Source of the DNA: Dysgonomonas sp. ZJ279
Lineage (GTDB): Bacteria > Bacteroidota > Bacteroidia > Bacteroidales > Dysgonomonadaceae
Direction: 5' to 3'
DNA: 64,000 nt
Assembly (NCBI RefSeq): GCF_011039205.1
Contig: NZ_JAAKEL010000003.1
Location: forward strand, 248,001 to 312,000
Of the stretch, positions 11,699 through 23,680 are shown piece after piece. A program made the translations under genes and the position numbers. Under the pieces are notes generated by a model. It made no database searches and was not told where the DNA came from. It was given only the letters and a program-made list of their open reading frames with translations. Position 1 is the first letter of the stretch. Each line of letters begins with the position of its first letter.

Positions 11699-13669
11699 AT
11701 GATAGCTATGAAAGGTAAAAAATCTGATAGTTACTTGAAGTTTGATATGTCTCGGATGGTCAATCTGGAGTATTCTTTGAATAGAGAGATACTCAGGACT
11801 AACCGTAGGGGGGCGTATCATTGTACAACGCTCGTGGAATGCAATACCAGGAAGCAACATGGGCTTTTGGTAGTGCCTGTGCCCAGTTTGGATAATTCGA
11901 ATCATGTTTTACTTTCGTCGCTTGATGAGACTGTAATACAGCATGGTGCGGAGTTTAATCTCGGTATCCATAAATACGATGGGGATAATTATAGTCCGAT
12001 GGGGCATAAGTACATAAGGGAGTTTAATTGCGACTGCTTACCCCGAACGGTATATCGCGTGGGAGGTGTTATCTTGTCTAAAGAAAAGATGTTTTCGCTC
12101 AAGAATAATACTATTTATATACGGTATACATTATTAGATGCACACTCACCTACAACAATCCGCTTCAAGCCATTTCTGGCATTCCGAGAAATAAATAACC
12201 TTGCAGTCGAGAATTCAGTAGCAAACCATGGCTACAAAGAGGTCGAAAAAGGTATTAGTATGTGTATGTATAGCGGATATCCGGATTTGTTTATGCAATT
12301 CAACAAAGCGGCGAATTTTATTTTTGACCCAAGTTGGTATAAAGGGATCGAATATCAAAAAGACATGCAAGATGGTTTGCCACATAAAGAAGACCTTTAT
12401 GTGCCGGGCTACTTCGAGCTGCCTATAGCTAAAGGGGAATCTATTATCTTCTCGGCAAGCGATGAGCCTGCAAAGACAGATAATCTTCTTTCGGTGTTCG
12501 AGGATGGTATTAAGGCTCGTACACCGCGTTCCTCATTTTTTAACTGCCTGAAGAATTCAGGACATCAATTCTATTTCCGTCCGTCAAAAGACGAGCTATA
12601 TATCAGAAATAGTTACCCATGGGGAGAGGTCAGAGCCCGTGAACAATTTATGGCTTTGCCGGGTTTAACTTTATCAATTGATAAGAATGAAGCCTTTGAA
12701 GAGGTAATGGATACGGCGATTCCTACAATAAATAACTTTTTGGAAGGTAAGCCACTATCCGGATTCTTGAAAGATATAGATAATGCCGATGTATTACTAT
12801 GGGTAGTACGGGCATTGAAAAAATTTGCAGATGTTGATAATGAACGATTTTATGCCAAGTATGCACTACTTGTAAATAAGATCGTTCATTTTATACAAAA
12901 AGGAAAACATCCGAATTTGAAGTTGTCGGATAACAAGTTGTTATATACAGATGCTAATATTGGTTTTCCCAGTTGGATGAATAACCAATCAGGAGGACAA
13001 CCGACTTCTCGTACAGGGCTTTTAGTCGAAGTTAATTCGGCTTGGTATAATGCAATAGCATTTAATCAGGAGATTGCCAACGCATTGAGTAATACAAAGC
13101 TGGAGAAAGATATGAGCCTTTTGGCAGGGAAGGTTAAATCTGCATTTGTCGATACATTCCTTAATGAGGGAGGTTATCTATACGATTATGTAGATGGTAA
13201 TTATGTAGATTGGAGTGTTCGTCCTAATATGCTTCTGGCAATATCCGGCGACTATCAGTTGCTCGATAAGCGACAGAGTAAATCTATTCTGGACATTGTT
13301 ACGAAAGAGTTATTAACCTCAAAAGGTGTTCGAACATTAAGCCCTAAGAGTGTTGGGTTCCGTCCACGCTGTGAAGGCTCTGCAATGGATAAGGTGTATA
13401 GTGCCTATAATGGGGCTGCATGGCCTTGGTTGTTAGGCGCTTATATGGAAGGATATCTGAGGATATTCCAGCGTAGCGGATTATCATTTCTGGATAGGTT
13501 ATTGATAGGTGTAGAGGATGAAATGTCTAATGATTGTATCGGTTCTTTATCTGCTTTGTACGATGGTAGTGTACCTTACTCGGGTCATGGGGCTATATCG
13601 TATGCTACCAATGTAGCGGGGGTGCTGCGCGCACTCACTTTGCAGAAAGCATTTGAAGACGAATATTGA
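11699..13669 (+). CDS. Glycogen debranching enzyme (amylo-alpha-1,6-glucosidase)
   Basis: This enzyme removes alpha-1,6 branches from glycogen or related alpha-glucan. The 656-residue protein begins with the bacterial GDE N-terminal beta domain (EILRTNRRGAYHCTTLVECN, then KQHGLLVVPVP). The C-terminal catalytic (alpha/alpha)6 domain runs from about residue 330 to the end, with YTDANIGFPSW, RTGLLVEVNSAWYNA and NGAAWPWLLGAY typical of the family. A second in-frame ATG at 11708 (MKGKKSD) is an equally possible start. It is the first gene of a three-gene alpha-glucan cluster, 62 bases before the glycosyltransferase. Confidence 0.9.
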   Translation: MIAMKGKKSDSYLKFDMSRMVNLEYSLNREILRTNRRGAYHCTTLVECNTRKQHGLLVVPVPSLDNSNHVLLSSLDETVIQHGAEFNLGIHKYDGDNYSPMGHKYIREFNCDCLPRTVYRVGGVILSKEKMFSLKNNTIYIRYTLLDAHSPTTIRFKPFLAFREINNLAVENSVANHGYKEVEKGISMCMYSGYPDLFMQFNKAANFIFDPSWYKGIEYQKDMQDGLPHKEDLYVPGYFELPIAKGESIIFSASDEPAKTDNLLSVFEDGIKARTPRSSFFNCLKNSGHQFYFRPSKDELYIRNSYPWGEVRAREQFMALPGLTLSIDKNEAFEEVMDTAIPTINNFLEGKPLSGFLKDIDNADVLLWVVRALKKFADVDNERFYAKYALLVNKIVHFIQKGKHPNLKLSDNKLLYTDANIGFPSWMNNQSGGQPTSRTGLLVEVNSAWYNAIAFNQEIANALSNTKLEKDMSLLAGKVKSAFVDTFLNEGGYLYDYVDGNYVDWSVRPNMLLAISGDYQLLDKRQSKSILDIVTKELLTSKGVRTLSPKSVGFRPRCEGSAMDKVYSAYNGAAWPWLLGAYMEGYLRIFQRSGLSFLDRLLIGVEDEMSNDCIGSLSALYDGSVPYSGHGAISYATNVAGVLRALTLQKAFEDEY

Positions 13670-13731: not shown

Positions 13732-14991
13732 ATGAAGGCATTAATGTTTGGTTGGGAGTTTCCACCACATATTCTAGGAGGCTTGGGTACTGCCAGCTTT
13801 GGGTTGACCAGAGGGATGGCTATGCAACCGGATATGGATATTACATTCGTTATACCAAAACCTTGGGGTGACGAAGATCAGAGTTTTCTTAAGATTATAG
13901 GCGCATGCAATACTCCTGTTGCTTGGCGCGATGTACAATGGGATTTTGTAAACGAACACTTGTCAAAATACATGGATCCCCAGGAGTATTATAATTTGCG
14001 TGATAATATCTATGCTGATTTCAACTATATAGGAACGAATGATTTAGGATGTATCGAATTTTCGGGTAAATATCCCGATAATCTTTTACAGGAAATAAAT
14101 AATTACTCTATAGTAGCAGGTGTGATAGCCCGTACTTATGATTTCGATATTATTCATTCTCATGATTGGTTGACTTATCCGGCAGGATTGCATGCTAAGA
14201 ATGTTTTGGGTAAACCTCTTGTTATTCATGTGCATGCTACCGATTTCGACCGAAGTAGGGGAAATGTGAACCCACAGGTTTATCAGATAGAGAAAGACGG
14301 TATGGATAATGCCGATCATATTCTTTGTGTAAGCGAACTAACACGTCGCACAGTGATAGATAAATATCATCAGGATCCGGCTAAAGTAACTACTGTACAT
14401 AATGCGGTAGAACCTTTAAGTACCGAGATTCAGTTGATAAATCCTACTAGAGGCTCTAATGATAAAATAGTCACCTTCCTTGGACGTATTACGATGCAAA
14501 AAGGACCTGAATATTTTGTCGAAGCTGCCGCCAGTGTTTTAGAAAGGGCAAATAATGTGCGCTTTGTAATGGCTGGTAGCGGTGATATGATGGAAAAAAT
14601 GATCTACTTAGCCGCTCAAAAAGGAATATCGGATCGTTTTCACTTTACGGGTTTCCTCAAAGGAAAACAGGTTTATGAGATGTTGAAGCGAAGCGATGTG
14701 TATGTAATGCCTTCGGTTTCGGAACCATTTGGTATTTCTCCGCTAGAAGCTATGCAGTGTGGTATACCGACTATTATTTCGAAACAATCGGGCTGTGCTG
14801 AAATCCTCAATATGGCTATAAAAACAGATTATTGGGATATAGAAGCAATGGCGGATGCAATCTATTCAATTTGTACATATCCAGCCATGGCTGATTTTCT
14901 GAGTAAAGAAGGGAAAGCCGAAGTGGATGAAATAAAATGGGAATATGCCGGACAGAAAGTGCGGGATATATATAATAACTTATGTCAATAA
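13732..14991 (+). CDS. GT4-type glycosyltransferase (probable glycogen synthase-like)
   Basis: This 419-residue, cytoplasmic GT-B enzyme lacks membrane segments. The N-terminal domain opens with MFGWEFPPHILGGLGTAS, in which the Gly-Gly-Leu-Gly loop binds the nucleotide-sugar phosphate. The C-terminal domain has FLGRITMQKGPEYFVEA and the E-x7-E motif region SEPFGISPLEAMQCGIP. Flanked by a debranching enzyme and a GH57 protein, it most likely builds alpha-glucan from a nucleotide glucose. I assign GT4 from general appearance; a GT5 relationship is possible. Donor and acceptor are inferred from context only. Confidence 0.85.
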   Translation: MKALMFGWEFPPHILGGLGTASFGLTRGMAMQPDMDITFVIPKPWGDEDQSFLKIIGACNTPVAWRDVQWDFVNEHLSKYMDPQEYYNLRDNIYADFNYIGTNDLGCIEFSGKYPDNLLQEINNYSIVAGVIARTYDFDIIHSHDWLTYPAGLHAKNVLGKPLVIHVHATDFDRSRGNVNPQVYQIEKDGMDNADHILCVSELTRRTVIDKYHQDPAKVTTVHNAVEPLSTEIQLINPTRGSNDKIVTFLGRITMQKGPEYFVEAAASVLERANNVRFVMAGSGDMMEKMIYLAAQKGISDRFHFTGFLKGKQVYEMLKRSDVYVMPSVSEPFGISPLEAMQCGIPTIISKQSGCAEILNMAIKTDYWDIEAMADAIYSICTYPAMADFLSKEGKAEVDEIKWEYAGQKVRDIYNNLCQ

Positions 14992-15007: not shown

Positions 15008-16453
15008 ATGAAGACGATTTGTTTTTATTTTCAGATACACCAGCCTCATAGATTGAAACGTTATAGATTCTTCAATATTGGTGGAGATCATTATTACTAC
15101 GATGACTTCGCTAATGAGGATTTTATGCAACGCGTAGCTGAAGCATCTTTTGTTCCGGCCAACAGGTTGATGTTGGATATGATAAAAGAATATAAGGGTA
15201 AATTTAAAGTGGCATTTTCCATATCGGGTGTGGCATTAGATCAATTAGAGATATATGCACCCGAGGTAATAGATGGTTTTAAAGAATTAGCGGAGACAGG
15301 GTGTGTAGAGTTCTTATCCGAAACCTATGGGCATTCGTTGGTATCTCTGATCGATCCACTCGGTTTCCAGCAGCAAGTAAAGCATCATGACGATAAAATA
15401 GAAATGCTGTTCGGACAACGACCAAAAGTATTTCGAAATTCCGAACTTATCTTTTCAGACGAAATAGCCAGAATGGTTCATGAAATGGGTTTTGCAGGTA
15501 TGATAACCGAGGGTGCGAAACGCACGCTAGGATGGAAAAGTCCTAACTATCTTTATCAGTCGGCTGAGCAACCCAAATTGAAATTATTGCTTCGTAATTC
15601 ACGTTTTAGCGATGATATTGCCGTGCGGTTTTCTAATTATAGTTGGAACGAATATCCTTTGACTGCCGATAAGTTCATCAATTGGATCGCAGATACGCCA
15701 AAAGAAGAGCAGGTAGTTAATCTGTTTATGAATTATGAAGTTCTTGGAAACTTCCAAAAGAGGAGTTCTGGTATATTCGATTTTATGAAGGCTTTGCCAA
15801 GATTTGCAGCTGATAAAAACATAACATTTTCTACACCATCCGATGTATTAGAGAAGCTAAAGCCGGTGGATCGCATATCTTCATTAAACCCTATTTCATG
15901 GGTGGGAGAGGAGAGGGATATTTCTCCTTGGTTAGGCAATACATTGCAGCAAGAGGCATTCAACAAATTGTATGAGATCGCAGATCGTATTCATTTATCT
16001 GAATCGAAGCGATTGATACAAGACTGGACTTACCTTCAATCGAGTGACCACTTTTATTATATGGGAACTAAAGAAGCTCTGCCTTTTAGTCCATACACAT
16101 CACCTTATGAGGCATTCAATAACTATATGAATGTATTGAGTGATCTGATTGAACGTATGGAAGCCGAATTTCCTAGCACGATCGATAATGAAGAATTGAA
16201 TGCTTTATTGACTACTATTCACAATCAGGCAGATGAAATAGAGAAACTTCAAAGTCAGTTAACTAAACTGAAACCGTCGGCAGAAAAAGAGAAAGTTACT
16301 CCTGCAAAGAAAGCGGCTTCGTCTGAAAAAACAACTGCTCCTGCAAAGTCTAAGAATACAAAGCCTGCTCCGGTGGAGGCAAAAGCTGCCAATACTAAAA
16401 CAGAAGTTGTTCCAGATAAAAAAACTACTACGAGCAAAAAGAAAGCAAAATAA
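15008..16453 (+). CDS. GH57 family glycoside hydrolase-like protein with altered catalytic motif and Lys/Ala-rich tail
   Basis: GH57 enzymes are alpha-amylases, 4-alpha-glucanotransferases or branching enzymes. I place the start at the ATG at 15008 (MKTICFYFQIHQPH), 16 bases after the preceding stop; an upstream in-frame TTG is unlikely. The 481-residue protein has region 1 (HQP, 11-13), GCVEFLSETYGHSL, and the nucleophile motif FRNSELIFSDE with Glu146. The acid/base position, normally Asp in DYExFG, is Asn242 in MNYEVLG. From about 420 the protein is a low-complexity Lys/Ala/Pro/Thr tail. Activity may be lost or changed, or the role may be structural or regulatory. Confidence 0.85.
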   Translation: MKTICFYFQIHQPHRLKRYRFFNIGGDHYYYDDFANEDFMQRVAEASFVPANRLMLDMIKEYKGKFKVAFSISGVALDQLEIYAPEVIDGFKELAETGCVEFLSETYGHSLVSLIDPLGFQQQVKHHDDKIEMLFGQRPKVFRNSELIFSDEIARMVHEMGFAGMITEGAKRTLGWKSPNYLYQSAEQPKLKLLLRNSRFSDDIAVRFSNYSWNEYPLTADKFINWIADTPKEEQVVNLFMNYEVLGNFQKRSSGIFDFMKALPRFAADKNITFSTPSDVLEKLKPVDRISSLNPISWVGEERDISPWLGNTLQQEAFNKLYEIADRIHLSESKRLIQDWTYLQSSDHFYYMGTKEALPFSPYTSPYEAFNNYMNVLSDLIERMEAEFPSTIDNEELNALLTTIHNQADEIEKLQSQLTKLKPSAEKEKVTPAKKAASSEKTTAPAKSKNTKPAPVEAKAANTKTEVVPDKKTTTSKKKAK

Positions 16454-16523: not shown

Positions 16524-17267
16524 CTATTGTAAGGAAAGGTAGTTATAGTCACTAACTACTTTTTTTAAGAAAACTTTATCAGGTCCATCGTAAGTATAGC
16601 CTGTTATGGCTTTTATTCTATCAGCAAGACGTTTATTGAAGTAATCGTTATCTTTCATCTTGTCGTCTTCTGTTATCGCAATTATAGTTTGCACATCTTT
16701 GTCCGACAATCTATCCAGAATGTTCGTGTAACTAACTTTATAGTCTTCGTGGAAATCGAGATCGGATATTTTTAATTCTCTGTTTTTCGAGTTTACTTTC
16801 AGATCGATAACTGTTGTGCCGGCTAGATAGTCTCCTAAGCGTTGTGAACGTTTTGTTGCAACAATCATTATTAGTCCGAGAATACCTTCTGTCATCGAAA
16901 AATCTATAGGTCTGAACAGCCATCTTATCAGGTATGCTCCGAGTGAAGGGGGCGCACCATCGATATTGACTACTCTGATTTTAAACAACATTTTGCCAAG
17001 ACTCTGTCCGTTATTCATTGTTTCGAATAATAGATCGTAAAAGAATGCAGGGCCAATAACTATTATAGAAAGGAATAACCAGAAGAGCTCGGAACCGAAT
17101 AGATTTCCAGAATTAAAATCGAATATATTGTAAAGTATTCCAAACCAAACTCCAAACCAGGTAATGATCACAAGCCAATCGACCATATATGCTAATAACC
17201 GGTATCCAATACCTGCGGGTTCGTAGTCTATCGTTACATTTTGTGTCGTTTGTACTTCAATTGCCAT
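16524..17267 (-). CDS. RDD family membrane protein
   Basis: This 247-residue protein opens with the RDD domain: GIGYRLLAYMVDWLVIITWF carries the Arg and Asp that define the family, followed by a second and probably a third hydrophobic helix (about 60-80 and 115-130). GQSLGKMLFKIRVV is the usual loop between helices. About 100 residues of hydrophilic C-terminal tail end the protein. RDD proteins are often of unknown function. It is divergent from the SpoIIM gene, and the same domain set recurs together in other genomes, so it probably works with the locus that follows. Confidence 0.85.
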   Translation of the reverse strand: MAIEVQTTQNVTIDYEPAGIGYRLLAYMVDWLVIITWFGVWFGILYNIFDFNSGNLFGSELFWLFLSIIVIGPAFFYDLLFETMNNGQSLGKMLFKIRVVNIDGAPPSLGAYLIRWLFRPIDFSMTEGILGLIMIVATKRSQRLGDYLAGTTVIDLKVNSKNRELKISDLDFHEDYKVSYTNILDRLSDKDVQTIIAITEDDKMKDNDYFNKRLADRIKAITGYTYDGPDKVFLKKVVSDYNYLSLQ

Positions 17268-17305
17268 ACAGATAAATTAAAAAGCCCAAAAACTTAATCA
17301 TAGGG

Positions 17306-17313
17306 CAAATTTA
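17306..17313 (-). promoter_or_regulatory. Promoter -7 box for the RDD gene
   Basis: On the minus strand this reads TAAATTTG, about 40 bases before the start codon. It forms a divergent promoter pair with the box at 17366. Confidence 0.5.
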
Positions 17314-17365
17314 TATTTTTTATACGATTATTCGAGTATTTCTTTATTCTTTTTGGACAAAGGGT

Positions 17366-17373
17366 TATATTTG
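17366..17373 (+). promoter_or_regulatory. Promoter -7 box for the SpoIIM-MoxR-DUF58 operon
   Basis: TATATTTG is an exact match to TAnnTTTG, 35 bases before the SpoIIM-like start codon. The six genes downstream overlap or nearly touch, so this could be the promoter for all. Confidence 0.55.
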
Positions 17374-17408
17374 TGGAGCAATCATTTAAAAAAACGACAC
17401 TTAATTAG

Positions 17409-18380
17409 ATGAGAGAAGCCGCATTCATTAAAGAAAATAGAGAGAAGTGGCAGCAAATAGATAGCCAGAATGAGGATAAAGATATTCCGGCCGAAACTTT
17501 AGCAGATAACTTTATAGAGCTTACAGACGATTTGTCTTATGCACGTACTTTCTATCCGAAGTCGCAAACTGTCAAATATTTGAATCAGCTTGCCGCTCGC
17601 TATTTCATTGATATATATAAACATCGTAAGAGAGAGAAAGGTCGCTTTGCCCGTTTTTGGAAAATCGAACTGCCTCTTATTATGTATCGATACAGAAAAT
17701 ATATGCTTTATTCATTTCTGTTCATGTTTGCCGGTGTTCTGCTCGGAATTTTTTCGCAGCAGCAAGATTCAGATTTTGCAAACCTTATTCTTGGCGAAGC
17801 TTATGTAAATCAGACTATAGAAAATATAGAGAGTGGCGATCCGATGGCTATATATAAAAGTCAGGAGGAGACACCAATGTTTTTTATGATTTCGACGAAT
17901 AATATAATGGTATCATTCTATGCCTTTATATATGGAATATTATTCTCGGTCGGAACAGTTTTTGTTCTTTTTTCTAACGGAGTAATGCTTGGTACATTTC
18001 AATATTTCTTTTTCGAACACGGTCTGCTAGGAACATCACTTTTGTCTGTTTGGTTGCATGGAACACTCGAAATATCTGCAATCGTAATAGCCGGAGGTGC
18101 CGGTATCGCATTAGGTAACAGCTTGCTATTCCCCGGAAGTTATAAGCGTGTAGATTCACTACGTCGGGCAGCTAAAGACGCTCTTAAAATAGTAGTTGGG
18201 TTAATACCCGTATTTCTTGTTGCCGGATTTATCGAGAGTTTTCTTACTCGTTTGACTCACATGCCTGTATATTTTAATCTTACGATAATAATATTATCAG
18301 CATTATTTATTATATGGTATTTTTTTTATTACCCTTATTATCTAAATAGAAAATTGAATGAAACAATCACAGAAAATTAA
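17409..18380 (+). CDS. SpoIIM/DUF95-like integral membrane protein
   Basis: This 323-residue protein has a hydrophilic N-terminus (1-95) and then about six membrane helices. The segment WLHGTLEIS (215-223), followed by IVIAGGAGIALG, is the conserved core of the stage II sporulation protein M family. In sporulating Firmicutes SpoIIM acts with SpoIID/P in peptidoglycan remodelling. This organism type does not sporulate, so the role must differ. It is the first plus-strand gene of a six-gene run. Its last 23 bases overlap the next gene. Confidence 0.85.
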   Translation: MREAAFIKENREKWQQIDSQNEDKDIPAETLADNFIELTDDLSYARTFYPKSQTVKYLNQLAARYFIDIYKHRKREKGRFARFWKIELPLIMYRYRKYMLYSFLFMFAGVLLGIFSQQQDSDFANLILGEAYVNQTIENIESGDPMAIYKSQEETPMFFMISTNNIMVSFYAFIYGILFSVGTVFVLFSNGVMLGTFQYFFFEHGLLGTSLLSVWLHGTLEISAIVIAGGAGIALGNSLLFPGSYKRVDSLRRAAKDALKIVVGLIPVFLVAGFIESFLTRLTHMPVYFNLTIIILSALFIIWYFFYYPYYLNRKLNETITEN

Positions 18381-19212
18381 TCTTTTCGAAACAAGAGATC
18401 TTGGTCGTAATATTGAAGCTGCTCTAGCCTTTGCGAAGCAGAATTATGGTGCAATATGTAAAGGAATCAGTTTCTTTATACCTCTGTTATTAATTGCCGC
18501 TTATATAATGCCTGATACGTTCGAATTGCAGAGGCGGCTAAGTGGAGTTTCTCCATTGGAGATGTTAAGTGCATATGGATCGGATACGCTGCTTGCATAT
18601 TTGGCTGTTGGGTTGAGTTCTCTATTCTCTATGACCTATGTAATCAGTTATATGACGGAATATATCGATGCTGTGGATGGAAAAGTAGATTCGGCTGCTG
18701 TTTGGTCGAGATTCTCAAAAGTTATTTTTCCTGTATTCGTATGCCAGCTTGTATATATGATATGTGTTTCAGTGGGAACAATGCTTTGTCTTATACCGGG
18801 TGTTTTTATTGCTGTATCGTGTATGTTTTATGCGTATGTGTATATCAACGAAGGCGAAACTGTTATTGGTAGCCTTAAGCGTAGCTATTATCTTGTGCAG
18901 GGTAATTGGTGGTCTGTATTCTTGTATGTGCTTCTAGTGGTAATAGTCGTTGCCATTATTAGCGGGATATTCTCTATTCCATTGCTATTTGCGAGTATAG
19001 GTGCTGTTTTTGGTTTGGATGCCTTTGCCAGTGATACCTATATTTTTATTACAACACTAATTGCATATGTTGGTGATTTCTTTGTAGCTCCCCTTGTTAC
19101 TATAACGCTGGGTATGCTTTACTATAGCCTTCGCGATGAAAAAGAAGGTATTAATATGGATACAAAAATAGATGATATTGGTATTAATCAAGATAATAAT
19201 ACGAATTATTAA
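18358..19212 (+). CDS. Multi-pass membrane protein of the MoxR/DUF58 locus
   Basis: This 284-residue protein has about six hydrophobic helices (near 33-51, 78-100, 120-145, 148-170, 182-210 and 220-250) and a hydrophilic C-terminus. A short segment (CLIPGVFIAVSCMFYAYV) resembles the conserved part of DUF4013-like or glycerophosphodiesterase-type membrane domains, but I do not recognise a firm family. It overlaps the SpoIIM-like gene by 23 bases and precedes the DUF4129 gene by 21 bases, so it belongs to the operon. Confidence 0.7.
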   Translation: MKQSQKINLFETRDLGRNIEAALAFAKQNYGAICKGISFFIPLLLIAAYIMPDTFELQRRLSGVSPLEMLSAYGSDTLLAYLAVGLSSLFSMTYVISYMTEYIDAVDGKVDSAAVWSRFSKVIFPVFVCQLVYMICVSVGTMLCLIPGVFIAVSCMFYAYVYINEGETVIGSLKRSYYLVQGNWWSVFLYVLLVVIVVAIISGIFSIPLLFASIGAVFGLDAFASDTYIFITTLIAYVGDFFVAPLVTITLGMLYYSLRDEKEGINMDTKIDDIGINQDNNTNY

Positions 19213-19233
19213 AGTCTAGCTGATATAATATAA

Positions 19234-19977
19234 GTGATTCAAATAAAAATAAATAAGACGTTGTTTAAGGGTATTGTAATGATACTCTTAATCTGTTTTA
19301 GCTTACCTCTGCTATCTCAAGTAGATACATTGTCAGTTTCGTCGAAAGTTGAAGCTGTAGATTTTCGGATACCTTCTAAGGCAATTATAGAGGAATATCA
19401 GAAAGACGAACGTTTTCAATATATGGATGAGAAAAGTGAGGTTGATATACCGTGGTATACTAAACTATTCTCTTGGCTGGTCAATAAACTTTTTGGTGGT
19501 GCAGGCGATTTGATATCATCGGGATTGATTGGCTGGATTGGTATTGTAGCTCTCGTTATTCTTATCATTGTTATTATTTTGAAATTGATGGGTGTCAACT
19601 TTAAAGCCATATTAGGTAAAAAGAAAATGGATACACCCGAAATCGAGATATATACGGAGAATGTTCATGAGATGGAGTTTGAAACTCTTATAGCTAATGC
19701 CTTGCGAAATAACGATTATCGTTTAGCAGTTCGCTTTTTATACCTTAGGAATTTGAAGTCACTATCAGATAAATCGATTATAAAGTGGAGTGTGAATAAG
19801 ACGAATTATAATTATCAATACGAAATATCGAATAACACATTACGTTCTAAGTTTTTGGAAATAACCTTTATATTCGATTATGTGTGGTATGGCGAATTTC
19901 CGTTAGATGAGTCTGCTTTCTTTAGAGTAAATTCTCAGATGAATGATTTTAATAAAATGCTAGCCGATGAAAGATAA
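19234..19977 (+). CDS. DUF4129 domain membrane protein
   Basis: This 247-residue protein has a signal-like hydrophobic N-terminus (about 10-29), an extracytoplasmic segment, and one transmembrane helix (98-119). The cytoplasmic C-terminal DUF4129 region contains DYRLAVRFLYLRNLKSLSDK (161-180) and YVWYGEFP (216-223). In other organisms this domain sits beside transglutaminase-like or MoxR/DUF58 proteins. The start used is GTG at 19234, right after the preceding gene; an ATG 45 bases further in is possible but would shorten the signal. It overlaps the next gene by 11 bases. Confidence 0.78.
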   Translation: MIQIKINKTLFKGIVMILLICFSLPLLSQVDTLSVSSKVEAVDFRIPSKAIIEEYQKDERFQYMDEKSEVDIPWYTKLFSWLVNKLFGGAGDLISSGLIGWIGIVALVILIIVIILKLMGVNFKAILGKKKMDTPEIEIYTENVHEMEFETLIANALRNNDYRLAVRFLYLRNLKSLSDKSIIKWSVNKTNYNYQYEISNNTLRSKFLEITFIFDYVWYGEFPLDESAFFRVNSQMNDFNKMLADER

Positions 19978-21361
19978 GAAATGGATAGCATTAATTGCTG
20001 TGATTGTTGTCATGTTGGTCGGACTGATTTATTTAAACTCGTCTAAGAAGAAGGAAATTAGCTGGGTGCCTACATTTTACAATACTGATACAAATCCCTA
20101 TGGAACATACATTAGTTATGAATTATTGAAAACTGTTTTTCCTGATAATAAGATCCGGTCTACAAGGAAGCCTATATATAATAACTTAAAAGATACGCTC
20201 AATTCGTACTTCTTCTATGATGATTATTCTGACTATGAGTTTGAAGAAAATGATTCATCATATAACAATAATGAGTATACATACGACAATAATAACGAAA
20301 CAAGCTATTCGGATCCGGAAAATATCGCTAAAGATGATGCTATAGCAACAACTGCCTCTAATGTTACGGATAATACAACTTACGATCCCATGAGTATGTA
20401 TGACGGTATCGAAATTCCGGATACAACTGCTTATATATTTGTAAATAAAGATTTCACCCTCGATAAAGTGGATTTGGAGTACTTACTCGATTTTGTAGGT
20501 ATGGGTAATAATGTATTTATATCATCTGAAAGTTTCTCTCGGTTACTGATGGATACGTTGACGATTAAAGAAGAGAAAACATATTTTGATAGCGACAGTA
20601 TTTATACTTTAGTTGATTATCCCAATGAGGAATATGCATTCACAAATGCTTATTCAGATACTTATTTTAATACCGATAGCTGTAAACTGGCGGTGCGTGC
20701 GTTGGGACAAAATAAAAAGGGACAATCTGTATTTCTTCAAGTGAAATATGGCAATGGATATTTTTACCTGCATTCGGTTCCTATGGCATTTACAAATCTA
20801 AATATACTTAATCTAGATAAATACGATTTTGCATTCCGCAGTTTATCCTACATGCCGCGCAGCAGTAAAGTCATCTGGGACGAATATCAGAAGCAGGGGG
20901 CATTGGGAGAACAGAGTATGTTTAGAGTAATACTTTCTAGTATTCCGCTAACTATTGCACTCTGTATTTCGTTACTCGACTTTTTGCTTTTTATGATATT
21001 CAGAGCGAAGCGTACACAACGAATAATTCCTATCATAAATCCTCCGGTTAATTCTTCTATCGAATTTTTGGATACTATAAGTAATCTGTATTATCGAAAA
21101 AAAGATTTCCATGCTATAGCCGAGAAACGACAGGCTTATTTTTTGGATTATATACGTAAGAACTATTATATGTCAACCGAATATATCGATAGTGAATTTA
21201 TTCAATTGTTGAGTACTAAATCGGGAGCAGAAAAAGATACACTTAATGATATATTTGCTTATTACAAAGACATATCGACTTTATACGATGTTCCTAACGA
21301 TATGTTTTTGAAATATAATAGCCTCTTGGAAGATTTTTATAGAACAGTAAAGAATAAATAA
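19967..21361 (+). CDS. DUF4350 domain membrane protein with acidic low-complexity insert
   Basis: This 464-residue protein has an N-terminal helix (about 8-24) and a second near 323-350 (SIPLTIALCISLLDFLLFMI). Between them lies the DUF4350-like extracytoplasmic domain, starting SWVPTFYNTDTNPYGTYISY and resembling a ligand-binding fold. Residues about 84-145 form an Asp/Asn/Tyr/Ser/Glu-rich low-complexity stretch. The C-terminal 110 residues are cytoplasmic. Overlap of 11 bases with the DUF4129 gene and a 13-base gap to the MoxR gene support a single operon. The function is unknown. Confidence 0.75.
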   Translation: MKDKKWIALIAVIVVMLVGLIYLNSSKKKEISWVPTFYNTDTNPYGTYISYELLKTVFPDNKIRSTRKPIYNNLKDTLNSYFFYDDYSDYEFEENDSSYNNNEYTYDNNNETSYSDPENIAKDDAIATTASNVTDNTTYDPMSMYDGIEIPDTTAYIFVNKDFTLDKVDLEYLLDFVGMGNNVFISSESFSRLLMDTLTIKEEKTYFDSDSIYTLVDYPNEEYAFTNAYSDTYFNTDSCKLAVRALGQNKKGQSVFLQVKYGNGYFYLHSVPMAFTNLNILNLDKYDFAFRSLSYMPRSSKVIWDEYQKQGALGEQSMFRVILSSIPLTIALCISLLDFLLFMIFRAKRTQRIIPIINPPVNSSIEFLDTISNLYYRKKDFHAIAEKRQAYFLDYIRKNYYMSTEYIDSEFIQLLSTKSGAEKDTLNDIFAYYKDISTLYDVPNDMFLKYNSLLEDFYRTVKNK

Positions 21362-21374
21362 AATAGAATAATAT

Positions 21375-22349
21375 ATGTCAGATTTAGATTTTCAGTCGAG
21401 AATAGATTTCTCCGAATTGAGCCAGAGTGTTCAAGGAATAAAGAGTGAGATAGGGCGTGTAGTTGTAGGGCAGCATCAGCTAATAGAACAGATGATAGTT
21501 GCTATTTTGGCAAACGGACATGTGTTGGTAGAAGGTGTTCCGGGAGTAGCAAAAACACTGTCTGCAAAATTGTTGGCAAAAACGATTGATGTCGGTTTTA
21601 GCCGTATTCAGTTTACTCCCGATCTAATGCCTTCGGATGTATTAGGCACTAGTATATTTATGCCGGGAGCCTCGAAATTTGAATTTAAACAAGGGCCTAT
21701 TTTTTCTAATATAGTTCTTATTGATGAGATAAACCGTTCACCGGCTAAAACGCAGGCTGCACTTTTTGAAGTGATGGAAGAACGCCAGATAACAAATGAT
21801 GGTACAACTTACAAAATGGATTATCCATTTCTTGTTATTGCTACTCAGAACCCAATAGAGCAGGAAGGTACATATCGTTTACCGGAAGCTCAGCTAGACC
21901 GATTTCTATTTAAGATATCAGTTGATTACCCCAATATTGTTGATGAAATAACAATACTAGATAGACAAAATAAGGGAGAGTTATCGGCTGAGGTTGGCAT
22001 CAATCCGGTATTAACAGCTTCTAAATTACAATCTCTACGTCAGTCTATCGAGAAAGTATTAGTAGAGCGCCATCTACTTGAGTATATAGCGCAAATAGTT
22101 AGTTCTACGCGTCAGAGTCCATGGATAACATTAGGAGCATCACCGCGTGCATCGTTAGCGATATTGAACGCATCTAAGGCTTTGGCTGCGATAAGAGGCC
22201 GCGATTTTATTACTCCCGACGATATTAAAGAAATGGCAGTGCCTGTACTTCGCCACAGGATATTATTAACACCCGAAAAAGAAATGGACGGTACTTCTAC
22301 CGACACAATAATATGTCAACTAATAGACAAAACGGAGGTTCCCCGATAA
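21375..22349 (+). CDS. MoxR family AAA+ ATPase
   Basis: This 324-residue AAA+ chaperone-like ATPase has Walker A GVPGVAKT (54-61), Walker B IVLIDE (113-118), sensor-1 ATQNP (156-160), and EAQLDRFLFK (171-180) carrying the arginine-finger region. The C-terminal lid domain has SPRASLAILNASKALA. MoxR ATPases usually work with VWA or DUF58 proteins encoded next to them to mature or assemble envelope complexes. The DUF58 partner gene overlaps this one by 37 bases. All ATPase motifs look intact. Confidence 0.93.
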   Translation: MSDLDFQSRIDFSELSQSVQGIKSEIGRVVVGQHQLIEQMIVAILANGHVLVEGVPGVAKTLSAKLLAKTIDVGFSRIQFTPDLMPSDVLGTSIFMPGASKFEFKQGPIFSNIVLIDEINRSPAKTQAALFEVMEERQITNDGTTYKMDYPFLVIATQNPIEQEGTYRLPEAQLDRFLFKISVDYPNIVDEITILDRQNKGELSAEVGINPVLTASKLQSLRQSIEKVLVERHLLEYIAQIVSSTRQSPWITLGASPRASLAILNASKALAAIRGRDFITPDDIKEMAVPVLRHRILLTPEKEMDGTSTDTIICQLIDKTEVPR

Positions 22350-23680
22350 TTCGATTCTTTAAGAGCTTGTATCTTTCCAATCGATTCTTTCTGACACTTG
22401 CGTTAATAGTGTTAGGGCTTATTCTGTGCTTTATTTTTCAAGCCTTCTTCCTTTTCATGTTGGTATTTATAGGTGTGTTGGGTATCTTGTTCATTGTAGA
22501 TACTGTAGCAGTCTATCGTCAGAAGGATGGGGTGAAAGCATCGAGAGATTGTCCCGACCGATTATCTAATGGAGATCAGAATCCTATATCGATATCGATT
22601 AGAAATGATTATCCGTTTAAGATAGGTATCAAAATTGTCGAAGAAGTTCCTTTTCAGTTTCAAAAACGTGATCTTATATTTAAAACATCATTAGGAGTAG
22701 ATAGGAGTGACGTATTTCACTATAATCTGCGCCCTACCGAAAGAGGTGTGTATTTATTCGGTGCAATAAATATTTTTGTGACAGGCGTCTTTGGGTTGGT
22801 AAGCCGTCGTTATGTTTTCGATCAACAAAAATATGTAGCCGTATATCCATCTTTTTTAGAAATGCATAAATATGAACTGCTTGCAGCGTCTAATCGTTTG
22901 ACAGACTACGGAGTTAAAAAGATACGGCGGATTGGTCATGCAACGGAATTTGATCACATTAAGCATTATGTATTAGGTGATGATCCTCGCACTATTAACT
23001 ATAAGGCTACGGCACGAATCAGCCAGCTTATGGTAAATACGTATCAGGAAGAGAAATCACAACCGGTATATTGTCTTATTGATAAAGGGCGTACTATGAA
23101 GATGCCATTTAATGAAATGACGCTTCTCGATTATGCGATCAATTCGACTCTAATGGTTTGTAGCACAGCCTTAAATAAAGGTGATAAAGCAGGTGTTATA
23201 ACCTTCTCGAAGAATATTGATGATATACTTCCGGCCGACAAGCGTCGTCGTCAACGAAATAGTATTTTAGAAATGCTATACGCTCAACAAACTGATTTCA
23301 AAGAATCAGACTACGAACGTTTATTTGTTACAGTACGTCGTAAGTTGACACAACGCAGCCTCGTAATTCTCTATACTAACTTTGAAACAGTGAATGGTAT
23401 GCGCCGTCAACTGAAATATCTGAGCCATTTGGCTAAGGATCATTTAGTATTGGTGGCATTCTTTCTCAATTCGGAGTTTAATGATATTTTAGAAACTTCT
23501 CCAACTAATATGGAAGAGACTTTTCGCCGAGGGATGGCAGAGAAGCTGTCGAATGATAAATTGTTGATAGTGAAAGAACTTAATAGGCATGGCATACACA
23601 CTATTTTGTCTAAGCCTGAAAATCTGACAATTGATTCAATAAATAAATATCTTGAATTTAAATCGAGAGGATTAATCTGA
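22313..23680 (+). CDS. DUF58 domain protein (MoxR partner)
   Basis: This 455-residue protein has two hydrophobic helices at the N-terminus (about 25-43 and 45-63), an extracytoplasmic or beta-rich stretch, and the DUF58 core DDPRTINYKATAR (223-235). A VWA-like region follows. The metal-ion site that is DxSxS in classical VWA domains reads IDKGRTM (256-262), so it is degenerate. This is not unusual for the family, but metal binding cannot be assumed. It is the last gene of the operon and overlaps moxR by 37 bases. A palindromic repeat lies just downstream. Confidence 0.88.
   Translation: MSTNRQNGGSPIIRFFKSLYLSNRFFLTLALIVLGLILCFIFQAFFLFMLVFIGVLGILFIVDTVAVYRQKDGVKASRDCPDRLSNGDQNPISISIRNDYPFKIGIKIVEEVPFQFQKRDLIFKTSLGVDRSDVFHYNLRPTERGVYLFGAINIFVTGVFGLVSRRYVFDQQKYVAVYPSFLEMHKYELLAASNRLTDYGVKKIRRIGHATEFDHIKHYVLGDDPRTINYKATARISQLMVNTYQEEKSQPVYCLIDKGRTMKMPFNEMTLLDYAINSTLMVCSTALNKGDKAGVITFSKNIDDILPADKRRRQRNSILEMLYAQQTDFKESDYERLFVTVRRKLTQRSLVILYTNFETVNGMRRQLKYLSHLAKDHLVLVAFFLNSEFNDILETSPTNMEETFRRGMAEKLSNDKLLIVKELNRHGIHTILSKPENLTIDSINKYLEFKSRGLI

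Follow-up and report, generated by a model that had tools for sequence, protein, structure and literature searches.

Gene content of the locus

The window, a stretch of 64,000 nucleotides from a Dysgonomonas sp. ZJ279 contig, carries three adjoining genes on the forward strand. The first (11699..13669) encodes a GH133 amylo-alpha-1,6-glucosidase, i.e., a glycogen debranching enzyme, recognized by the Pfam profiles GDE_N (1.4e-74) and GDE_C (2e-44); its score against TIGR01561, 222 bits, lies under the cut-off of 364. The second (13732..14991) encodes a GT4-type glycosyltransferase with matches to Glycos_transf_1 (1.3e-36) and, in part, to Glyco_transf_5 (2.2e-11), and its best NCBIfam match is glgA_Coryne with 118 bits, under the cut-off of 302. 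The third (15008..16453) encodes a GH57-like protein of 481 aa, residues 6-290 of which match the Pfam family Glyco_hydro_57 (PF03065) with an E-value of 7.5e-68. Its ATG at 15008 is situated 16 nt past the GT4 stop; an alternative upstream ATG at 14945 falls within the GT4 gene, and most relatives have a methionine at the position of 15008. The protein is the sole GH57 match in its genome, and no NCBIfam model matches it at E 0.001. The cluster is adjoined at 16524-23680 by a gene for an RDD-like membrane protein on the reverse strand and by a forward-strand run resembling SpoIIM-like, MoxR ATPase and DUF58 genes, all named by eye. Elsewhere in the genome, on another contig, separate neighbouring genes encode GT3 (552 aa) and phosphorylase (875 aa), and a 668-aa open reading frame matches the GH13 branching-enzyme model at a score under its cut-off.

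AlphaFold2 modeling of the GH57-like protein (mean pLDDT 85) predicted the incomplete barrel and helical domain of known GH57 structures, with 9kyq_B as the best structural match (VIA-align Z 34.6, rmsd 2.9 over 342 residues). The model also matched polysaccharide deacetylases and GH38, which reflects the wider fold; a PDB sequence search with the window protein alone returned no relevant match.

The catalytic acid/base position is occupied by asparagine

In the GH57 enzyme AmyC of Thermotoga maritima, D349 is listed as the acid/base, E185 as the nucleophile and H10 as the polariser of the acid/base (Table 1 of PMC6616209). In the window protein, the HQP motif (residues 11-13, His11 to Pro13; 15038..15046, forward strand) and Glu146 at the nucleophile position (within FRNSEL; 15443..15445, forward strand) are kept, as the first-pass annotation had claimed, and His11 is probably the counterpart of AmyC His10. 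The same annotation held that the acid/base Asp had been replaced, and this is borne out: Asn242 (15731..15733, forward strand) is an in-frame AAT codon within the block NLFMNYEVLGNFQ, and when a profile built from 54 relatives is aligned to AmyC (2b5d), column 242 falls on Asp349, with a whole-chain E-value of 8.1e-5 and a weak match in that particular stretch (i-Evalue 1.5). The Thr and Phe that follow in intact-type proteins also differ, Thr245 and Phe246 being Val and Leu here, and none of the alignments made places an intact Asp at the acid/base position. The protein has the family profile, the predicted fold and the nucleophile Glu on strand 4 of a catalytic GH57 member, and lacks the acid/base Asp on strand 7.

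The codon was found to be genuine. The gene is present in 24 of 25 genomes of the genus Dysgonomonas, all 24 of which read MNYE (the 26 genus loci include two that are the window's own gene and one fragment, L026, without the site), and both Asn codons are in use among unique proteins (AAC 71, AAT 65). Since Asn is genus-wide and encoded in two ways, a sequencing error, raised in the first-pass annotation as a way in which the claim could fail, or a recent mutation is ruled out.

The structural matches of the model include crystal entries of an Aquifex GH57 D352N variant whose titles name cyclodextrins and a branched maltotriosyl sugar as the bound partners. D352N probably occupies the same position as Asn242; if so, evolution has fixed the very change that crystallographers use for trapping glucan.

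Distribution and phylogeny of the substitution

Matches to the protein occur in 92 of 101 family genomes and, across the order, in 230 of the 247 genomes sampled; a draw across the phylum gave matches in 7 of 197 other genomes, two of them weak, and the rows shown belong to other orders. At 48 family loci, some of them duplicated, Asn is the rule at the acid/base position; one gene has Pro, two have Ser, and five loci combine Asp with a Gly nucleophile. After removal of five fragments of fewer than 350 residues and with identical sequences counted once, 217 unique proteins comprised 137 with the pair Glu/Asn, 50 with the intact pair Glu/Asp and 30 with other pairs; this protein sample is non-random, joining the proteins that match the window best (one selection retained the top 80 of 577 relatives) with hand-picked spreads.

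Two further protein types were observed. The five loci with Asp and a Gly nucleophile (L037, L038, L039, L065 and L066, from genomes G029-G032 and G034) belong to one genus of the window's family, g3, and represent the reverse loss, Glu having changed to Gly. Their proteins read RLTGLMYSD or RLTGLIYSD, have HLP instead of HQP and lack the clade motif described below; GT3 lies downstream, its open frame measuring 1421 aa in G029 and G034. The placement of the g3 protein outside the clade of its family suggests that the cluster was acquired by this genus from another lineage. The second type (L088, L092, L192 and L194, including Bacteroides and Mediterranea records) has a Ser nucleophile, Glu at position 242 and HQI for HQP, and in genome G197 such a copy (L088) sits beside an Asn-type copy (L087).

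In a GH57 tree of 118 rows, the window protein falls in a clade of 55 rows with no intact member (SH-aLRT 100). The same clade forms one branch (54 of 112 rows, SH-aLRT 99) in a second tree, which was built under a mixture model after removal of the catalytic blocks, the C-terminus and six long rows, and again in the GT4 tree (53 of 105 rows, SH-aLRT 100). The intact protein L231 is sister to the clade in the GT4 tree and the second GH57 tree and adjoins it in the first. By their titles as deposited, the clade records come from Dysgonomonas, Tannerella, Porphyromonas, Muribaculaceae, Alistipes and Bacteroides; Parabacteroides loci sharing this Asn motif dropped out when the tree rows were thinned. 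The clade covers most of the window's family together with related Bacteroidales groups, with Asn as the rule.

Asp is absent from column 242 in all 55 rows of the clade and in all 148 proteins carrying the clade motif, where the position is N in 131, S in 4, G in 4, E in 4, T in 3 and P in 2; the nucleophile of these 148 is Glu in 142, S in 4 and D in 2. Outside the clade, losses are scattered and affect either residue, the nucleophile becoming G, H, A, S or Q and the acid/base N, S, R or E. Changes between the intact and lost states number 9 over 112 rows and 10 over 118, of which strongly supported branches force 2 and 5, respectively; these counts do not distinguish gain from loss, and polarity is taken from the nesting of the clade in the trees. 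Judged from these sequences, the loss of the acid/base Asp is ancestral to a large Bacteroidales clade, and similar losses occur elsewhere in the order.

A C-terminal helix marks the clade

The informative changes lie outside the coordinates singled out in the first-pass annotation, in the C-terminal helix, the neighbouring GT4 and the linkage to GT3. The helix region spans residues 390-426 (16175..16285, forward strand), as delimited by a profile HMM, column counts and the model, and includes the clade motif NEELNxLLxTIxNQ at residues 394-407 (16187-16228, forward strand). These residues are newly conserved in the clade, Gln407 being present in 54 of 54 rows. A helix is modelled at residues 394-426 with moderate confidence (mean pLDDT of 59, 71, 82 and 57 in successive blocks of residues 391-430); it lies past the range 1-390 covered by most rows of the structural alignment. 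By eye the helix has a coiled-coil-like pattern, and the profile of the protein and its relatives matches coiled-coil chains weakly (SNAP-25, E 1.2, not significant). It is followed by a Lys/Ala/Thr-rich tail, residues 429-481 (16292..16450, forward strand), which is probably disordered (pLDDT below 50); several intact-type proteins end in similar tails.

An HMM of residues 390-426 scored above 10 bits in none of 50 intact proteins (best 9.9) and in 148 lost proteins (lowest 42.9). It also matched 89 of 94 Asn proteins left out of its building, the motif proteins among these being at least 78% identical to some training row. The five Asn proteins that it missed (L098, L100, L105, L108 and L224, the last on a long branch) all lie outside the clade, so Asn alone does not bring the other changes. 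The clade row L131 is truncated before the motif. All four Ser/Glu proteins keep the helix motif; because they have lost the Pro of HQP, binding in their cleft may have eroded while the helix was retained.

A clade-specific shift in the neighbouring GT4

Clade-specific columns, defined as those with a residue present in at least 85% of clade rows and at most 10% of intact rows, were counted in the three proteins of the cluster. They number 32 of 417 in GT4 (54 clade and 43 intact rows), 11 of 431 in the GH57-like protein and 8 of 649 in GH133 (45 clade and 28 intact rows). Within the clade, GT4 is moreover the slowest evolving of the three proteins, the median identity of the window to clade rows being 75% for GT4, 62% for GH57 and 52% for GH133. 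Clade rows carry 21-32 of the 32 GT4 residues, intact rows 0-7, and 14 other lost rows, which were not used for choosing the residues, 0-3. Both the motif HMM and the list of GT4 residues fit the clade rows by construction, since they were built from those rows.

Twenty-two of the 32 columns fall in residues 1-176 of GT4 (binomial p 0.002). The N-terminal half of GT-B enzymes usually meets the acceptor. An SxEPFG...E-type motif is present in all 233 GT4 proteins. When the 32 columns were removed, the GT4 tree still retained the clade and its sister L231, which makes replacement by a foreign GT4 unlikely.

Stable linkage to GH133 and GT4, and separation from GT3

Among loci with more than 4 kb of upstream sequence, GH133 and GT4 are located upstream on the same strand in 158 of 161. 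The exceptions are L137 and L147, which are without both genes, and the intact locus L244, which has GT4 and no GH133 match. Counted by unique protein, all 30 intact proteins, 108 of the 110 with the clade motif and all 12 other lost ones show the arrangement; L244 was left out of this count as a duplicate protein, and the truncated clade row L131 is among the 12.

In contrast to this stability, GT3 lies downstream at 25 of 32 intact loci and 8 of 11 other lost loci, versus none of 103 clade-motif loci, with 70 loci having too little downstream sequence left out. In a set of 62 chosen genomes, GT3 is encoded by an open frame of 530-655 aa in all 29 clade genomes; in the 33 non-clade genomes the frame measures 1312-1444 aa in 29 and 609-615 aa in 2, and is absent in 2. 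The one such long frame that was examined, in G296, has GT3 in front and alpha-glucan phosphorylase (GT35) behind. Near intact GH57 genes, as in the 1412-aa frame at L248:1260-5495, the GT3 glycogen synthase and the phosphorylase are thus fused, joining a making and a breaking enzyme in one protein. An apparent GH57-GT3 fusion at G190, a 1789-aa open frame, was rejected, the frame reading through a TAA between the two genes. Two genomes, G505 and G419, possess GH133, GT4 and an intact GH57 and give no GT3 match, a pattern that fits a GT4 which is itself a glucan synthase.

Branching enzyme was surveyed in the same 62 genomes with TIGR01515. A match of at least 200 bits was obtained in 28 of 29 clade genomes (the miss being G039), in all 6 of the other lost genomes and in 20 of the 27 intact ones, the intact misses being G119, G222, G186, G176, G171 and G505, together with G215, which has a partial 165-bit match. 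The model's own cut-off is passed by 2 of the 62 genomes. The idea that catalysis was lost only where a GH13 branching enzyme exists is at most suggestive, as five of the misses lie close together in the 118-row GH57 tree. Of the seven genomes without a match of at least 165 bits, six have an intact GH57 and G039 has the Asn type; the intact GH57 might do the branching in those six.

Constraint on the lost-type protein

Values of dN/dS across residues 1-390 were computed for 22 disjoint pairs in which both proteins are catalytically lost; they span 0.006-0.085 with a median of 0.027. The dS of these pairs reaches 1.6, and one of them is of the Gly-nucleophile type outside the clade. No intact pairs close enough for the calculation were found, hence these values stand without an intact control. 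On the strength of this median, which indicates strong purifying selection, pseudogene decay of the lost-type protein was rejected.

Among the 99 columns at least 95% fixed in intact-type proteins, 69 stay at least 90% conserved in the clade. The strongly relaxed columns are 91, 154, 206, 242, 245, 248, 299 and 361, three of which lie in the acid/base loop. Relaxation of this loop in the clade is seen at positions 245, 248 and 249; His249 is present in 44 of 48 intact rows versus 1 of 55 clade rows.

A putative non-cleaving glucan-binding subunit

Acid/base loss, gain of the helix, the GT4 shift and the unlinking of GT3 map to one branch and, with the constraint and synteny described above, their coincidence is supported at the level of sequence comparison. 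We consider it somewhat more probable than its negation that the GH57-like protein is a neofunctionalised pseudoenzyme, a non-cleaving glucan-binding subunit that presents chains to GT4 (or to GH133). The sequences support an ancestor that had an alpha-amylase-type GH57 with a Glu nucleophile and an Asp acid/base. Its gene closed a GH133-GT4-GH57 cluster, behind which the GT3 glycogen synthase usually lay, in most of the tested non-clade genomes as part of an open frame of about 1400 aa. On the clade stem, the Asp was replaced, most often by Asn, with the fold, Glu146 and most intact-type invariant positions staying in place; the C-terminal helix appeared, GT4 gained fixed residues mostly in its N-terminal half, and GT3 left the locus and now forms a separate, shorter open frame. 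Lacking the acid/base, the protein would presumably no longer cleave alpha-glucan at a useful rate, and its cleft could still hold a glucan chain, by analogy with the Asp-to-Asn mutants of an active GH57 enzyme seen in crystals. The helix may then oligomerise the protein or dock it onto GT4. In its most specific form, this reading has an amylase converted once, on one branch leading to a large clade of gut and other Bacteroidales, into an obligate subunit for a GT4 glucan synthase, binding glucan and no longer cleaving it, with a docking or oligomerising helix, a GT4 remodelled in its N-terminal half and a separated GT3; we advance this form tentatively, and rate its chances below even. The connection between the GH57-like protein and GT4 is drawn from gene order and from coincident change on one branch, which is a single event. 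As a counterpoint, the presence of Glu146 in 142 of 148 proteins might be more than a mere scaffold needs.

A pseudoenzyme with a different partner or role, for instance one that forms homo-oligomers in glycogen particles or that serves GH133 or the unlinked GT3/GT35 as a subunit, seems to us rather unlikely, although the coiled-coil-like look of the helix with its weak SNAP-25 match is in keeping with it and GH133 is linked almost as strictly as GT4; the larger clade-specific shift is in GT4, with only 8 of 649 columns in GH133. The retained nucleophile bears most directly on a somewhat less likely reading, that the protein is still an enzyme with a changed reaction, in which Glu146, attacking a donor that bears a good leaving group, would yield a glycosyl-enzyme with no need of an acid. 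In myrosinase, a member of GH1, the acid/base position is occupied by Gln, and since Glu146 is kept, a reaction of that kind can still be envisaged by analogy. The pattern of Glu in 142 of 148 clade-motif proteins with the acid/base Asp lost in all, and the strong purifying selection, argue for it. However, the acid/base position varies within the clade (N, S, G, T, P, E), the members without the nucleophile (S in 4, D in 2) keep the helix motif and are not among the loci lacking the operon, and we know of no activated donor for a GH57.

A normal GH57 hydrolase with a relocated acid/base is less probable still. Glu301, Glu302 and Asp304 are nearly invariant, and Glu occupies position 244 in 46 of 48 intact rows and in 48 of 55 clade rows, with Asp in 6 and Cys in 1 of the latter; these residues are not replacements, since intact proteins conserve them too. 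The 21 columns that became conserved in the clade include no Asp or Glu, and a stricter list of such columns holds one acid, Glu395, in the C-terminal helix outside the barrel. With no newly conserved Asp or Glu in the barrel of clade proteins, relocation was rejected as a candidate. Ongoing decay of a dispensable gene would agree with the several separate losses in the sampled order (9-10 intact/lost changes), yet the median dN/dS of 0.027, the preserved synteny, the presence in 230 of 247 order genomes and the new conserved residues leave it only the slightest likelihood.

The interpretation offered in the first-pass annotation is thus partly supported. Loss of canonical hydrolysis combined with a non-catalytic role in an alpha-glucan cluster is the best fit to the data, but the change is not special to this protein, being ancestral to a large clade, with similar losses, also of the nucleophile, elsewhere in the order. 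Its alternative of a changed reaction keeps some probability through the retention of Glu146 in the motif proteins. Strict retention beside a probable glucan synthase and the newly conserved tail suggest that the protein now takes part in building or organising glycogen and no longer cuts it.

Comparison with known systems

Under its Pfam name, Glycosyl hydrolase family 57, the protein is counted as a hydrolase in genera including Bacteroides, Parabacteroides and Alistipes. Should it be a pseudoenzyme, the CAZyme counts and glycogen models in use for these bacteria would be mistaken at one step. The coupled changes described here were not found among the open-access literature matches listed, none of the queries having been aimed at the helix or the GT4 residues. 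The part played by catalysis can be tested by exchange, because intact, Asn-type and Ser/Glu-type versions sit behind the same two neighbours in related genomes.

Solved GH57 structures (1k1x, 2b5d, 3n8t, 3p0b, 5wu7, 9jlu and 8zyi) share the barrel and helical domain with the model (Z 26.4-34.1 over 340-360 residues) and have counterparts of Glu146 and His11 at 14-19% identity to the window protein; unlike it, the wild types have the acid/base Asp. GH57 alpha-amylase-like proteins without one or both catalytic residues have already been described (Martinovicova and Janecek 2018, PMC6037648), and the window protein has in common with that group the GH57 conserved regions and a substituted catalytic residue (Asn242). 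As in the group, logo position 12 is non-aromatic, being Arg143, three residues before the nucleophile, and Tyr350-Tyr351 in DHFYYM would correspond, in our reading, to the final Tyr-Tyr of the logo, a pair that the paper gives for alpha-amylases and not explicitly for the alpha-amylase-like group. As far as tested on sequence features, the protein fits the alpha-amylase-like description in the passages concerned. The string 'Bacteroid-' does not occur in the main text of that paper, and its passages on these proteins are silent on the C-terminal helix, the GT4 shift and the unlinking of GT3.

The cluster itself has parallels. In Segatella copri, GH133, GT4 and GH57 genes lie side by side and are given as predicted alpha-glucan-related enzymes in the relevant section of PMC11784079, and B. 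fragilis strains are described in part of PMC10395257 as having an intracellular polysaccharide, with GlgC absent in Bacteroidetes. The same three families adjoin in archaeal GH133-GT4-GH57 clusters such as that of Picrophilus torridus, a likeness by gene content; the passage on these clusters states that the function of GT4 requires clarification (PMC11046441). The Bacteroidales locus offers a tractable case for this question of the GT4 role.

For a conserved non-catalytic partner in alpha-glucan building, plant ISA2 may serve as a precedent by analogy. In the account of PMC12510319 drawn on here, ISA2 is a non-catalytic partner of ISA1, proposed to act in complexes with several glucan-binding sites, and the GH57-like protein resembles it in being conserved, related to an enzyme that cleaves alpha-glucan, and probably devoid of a working active site itself. 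ISA2 differs in being a GH13-type isoamylase and a paralog of its partner, so the resemblance is one of working and not of kinship. If the GT4-subunit reading is true, the GH57-like protein would be to bacteria what ISA2 is to plants, and would mark a distinct way in which gut commensals build glycogen.
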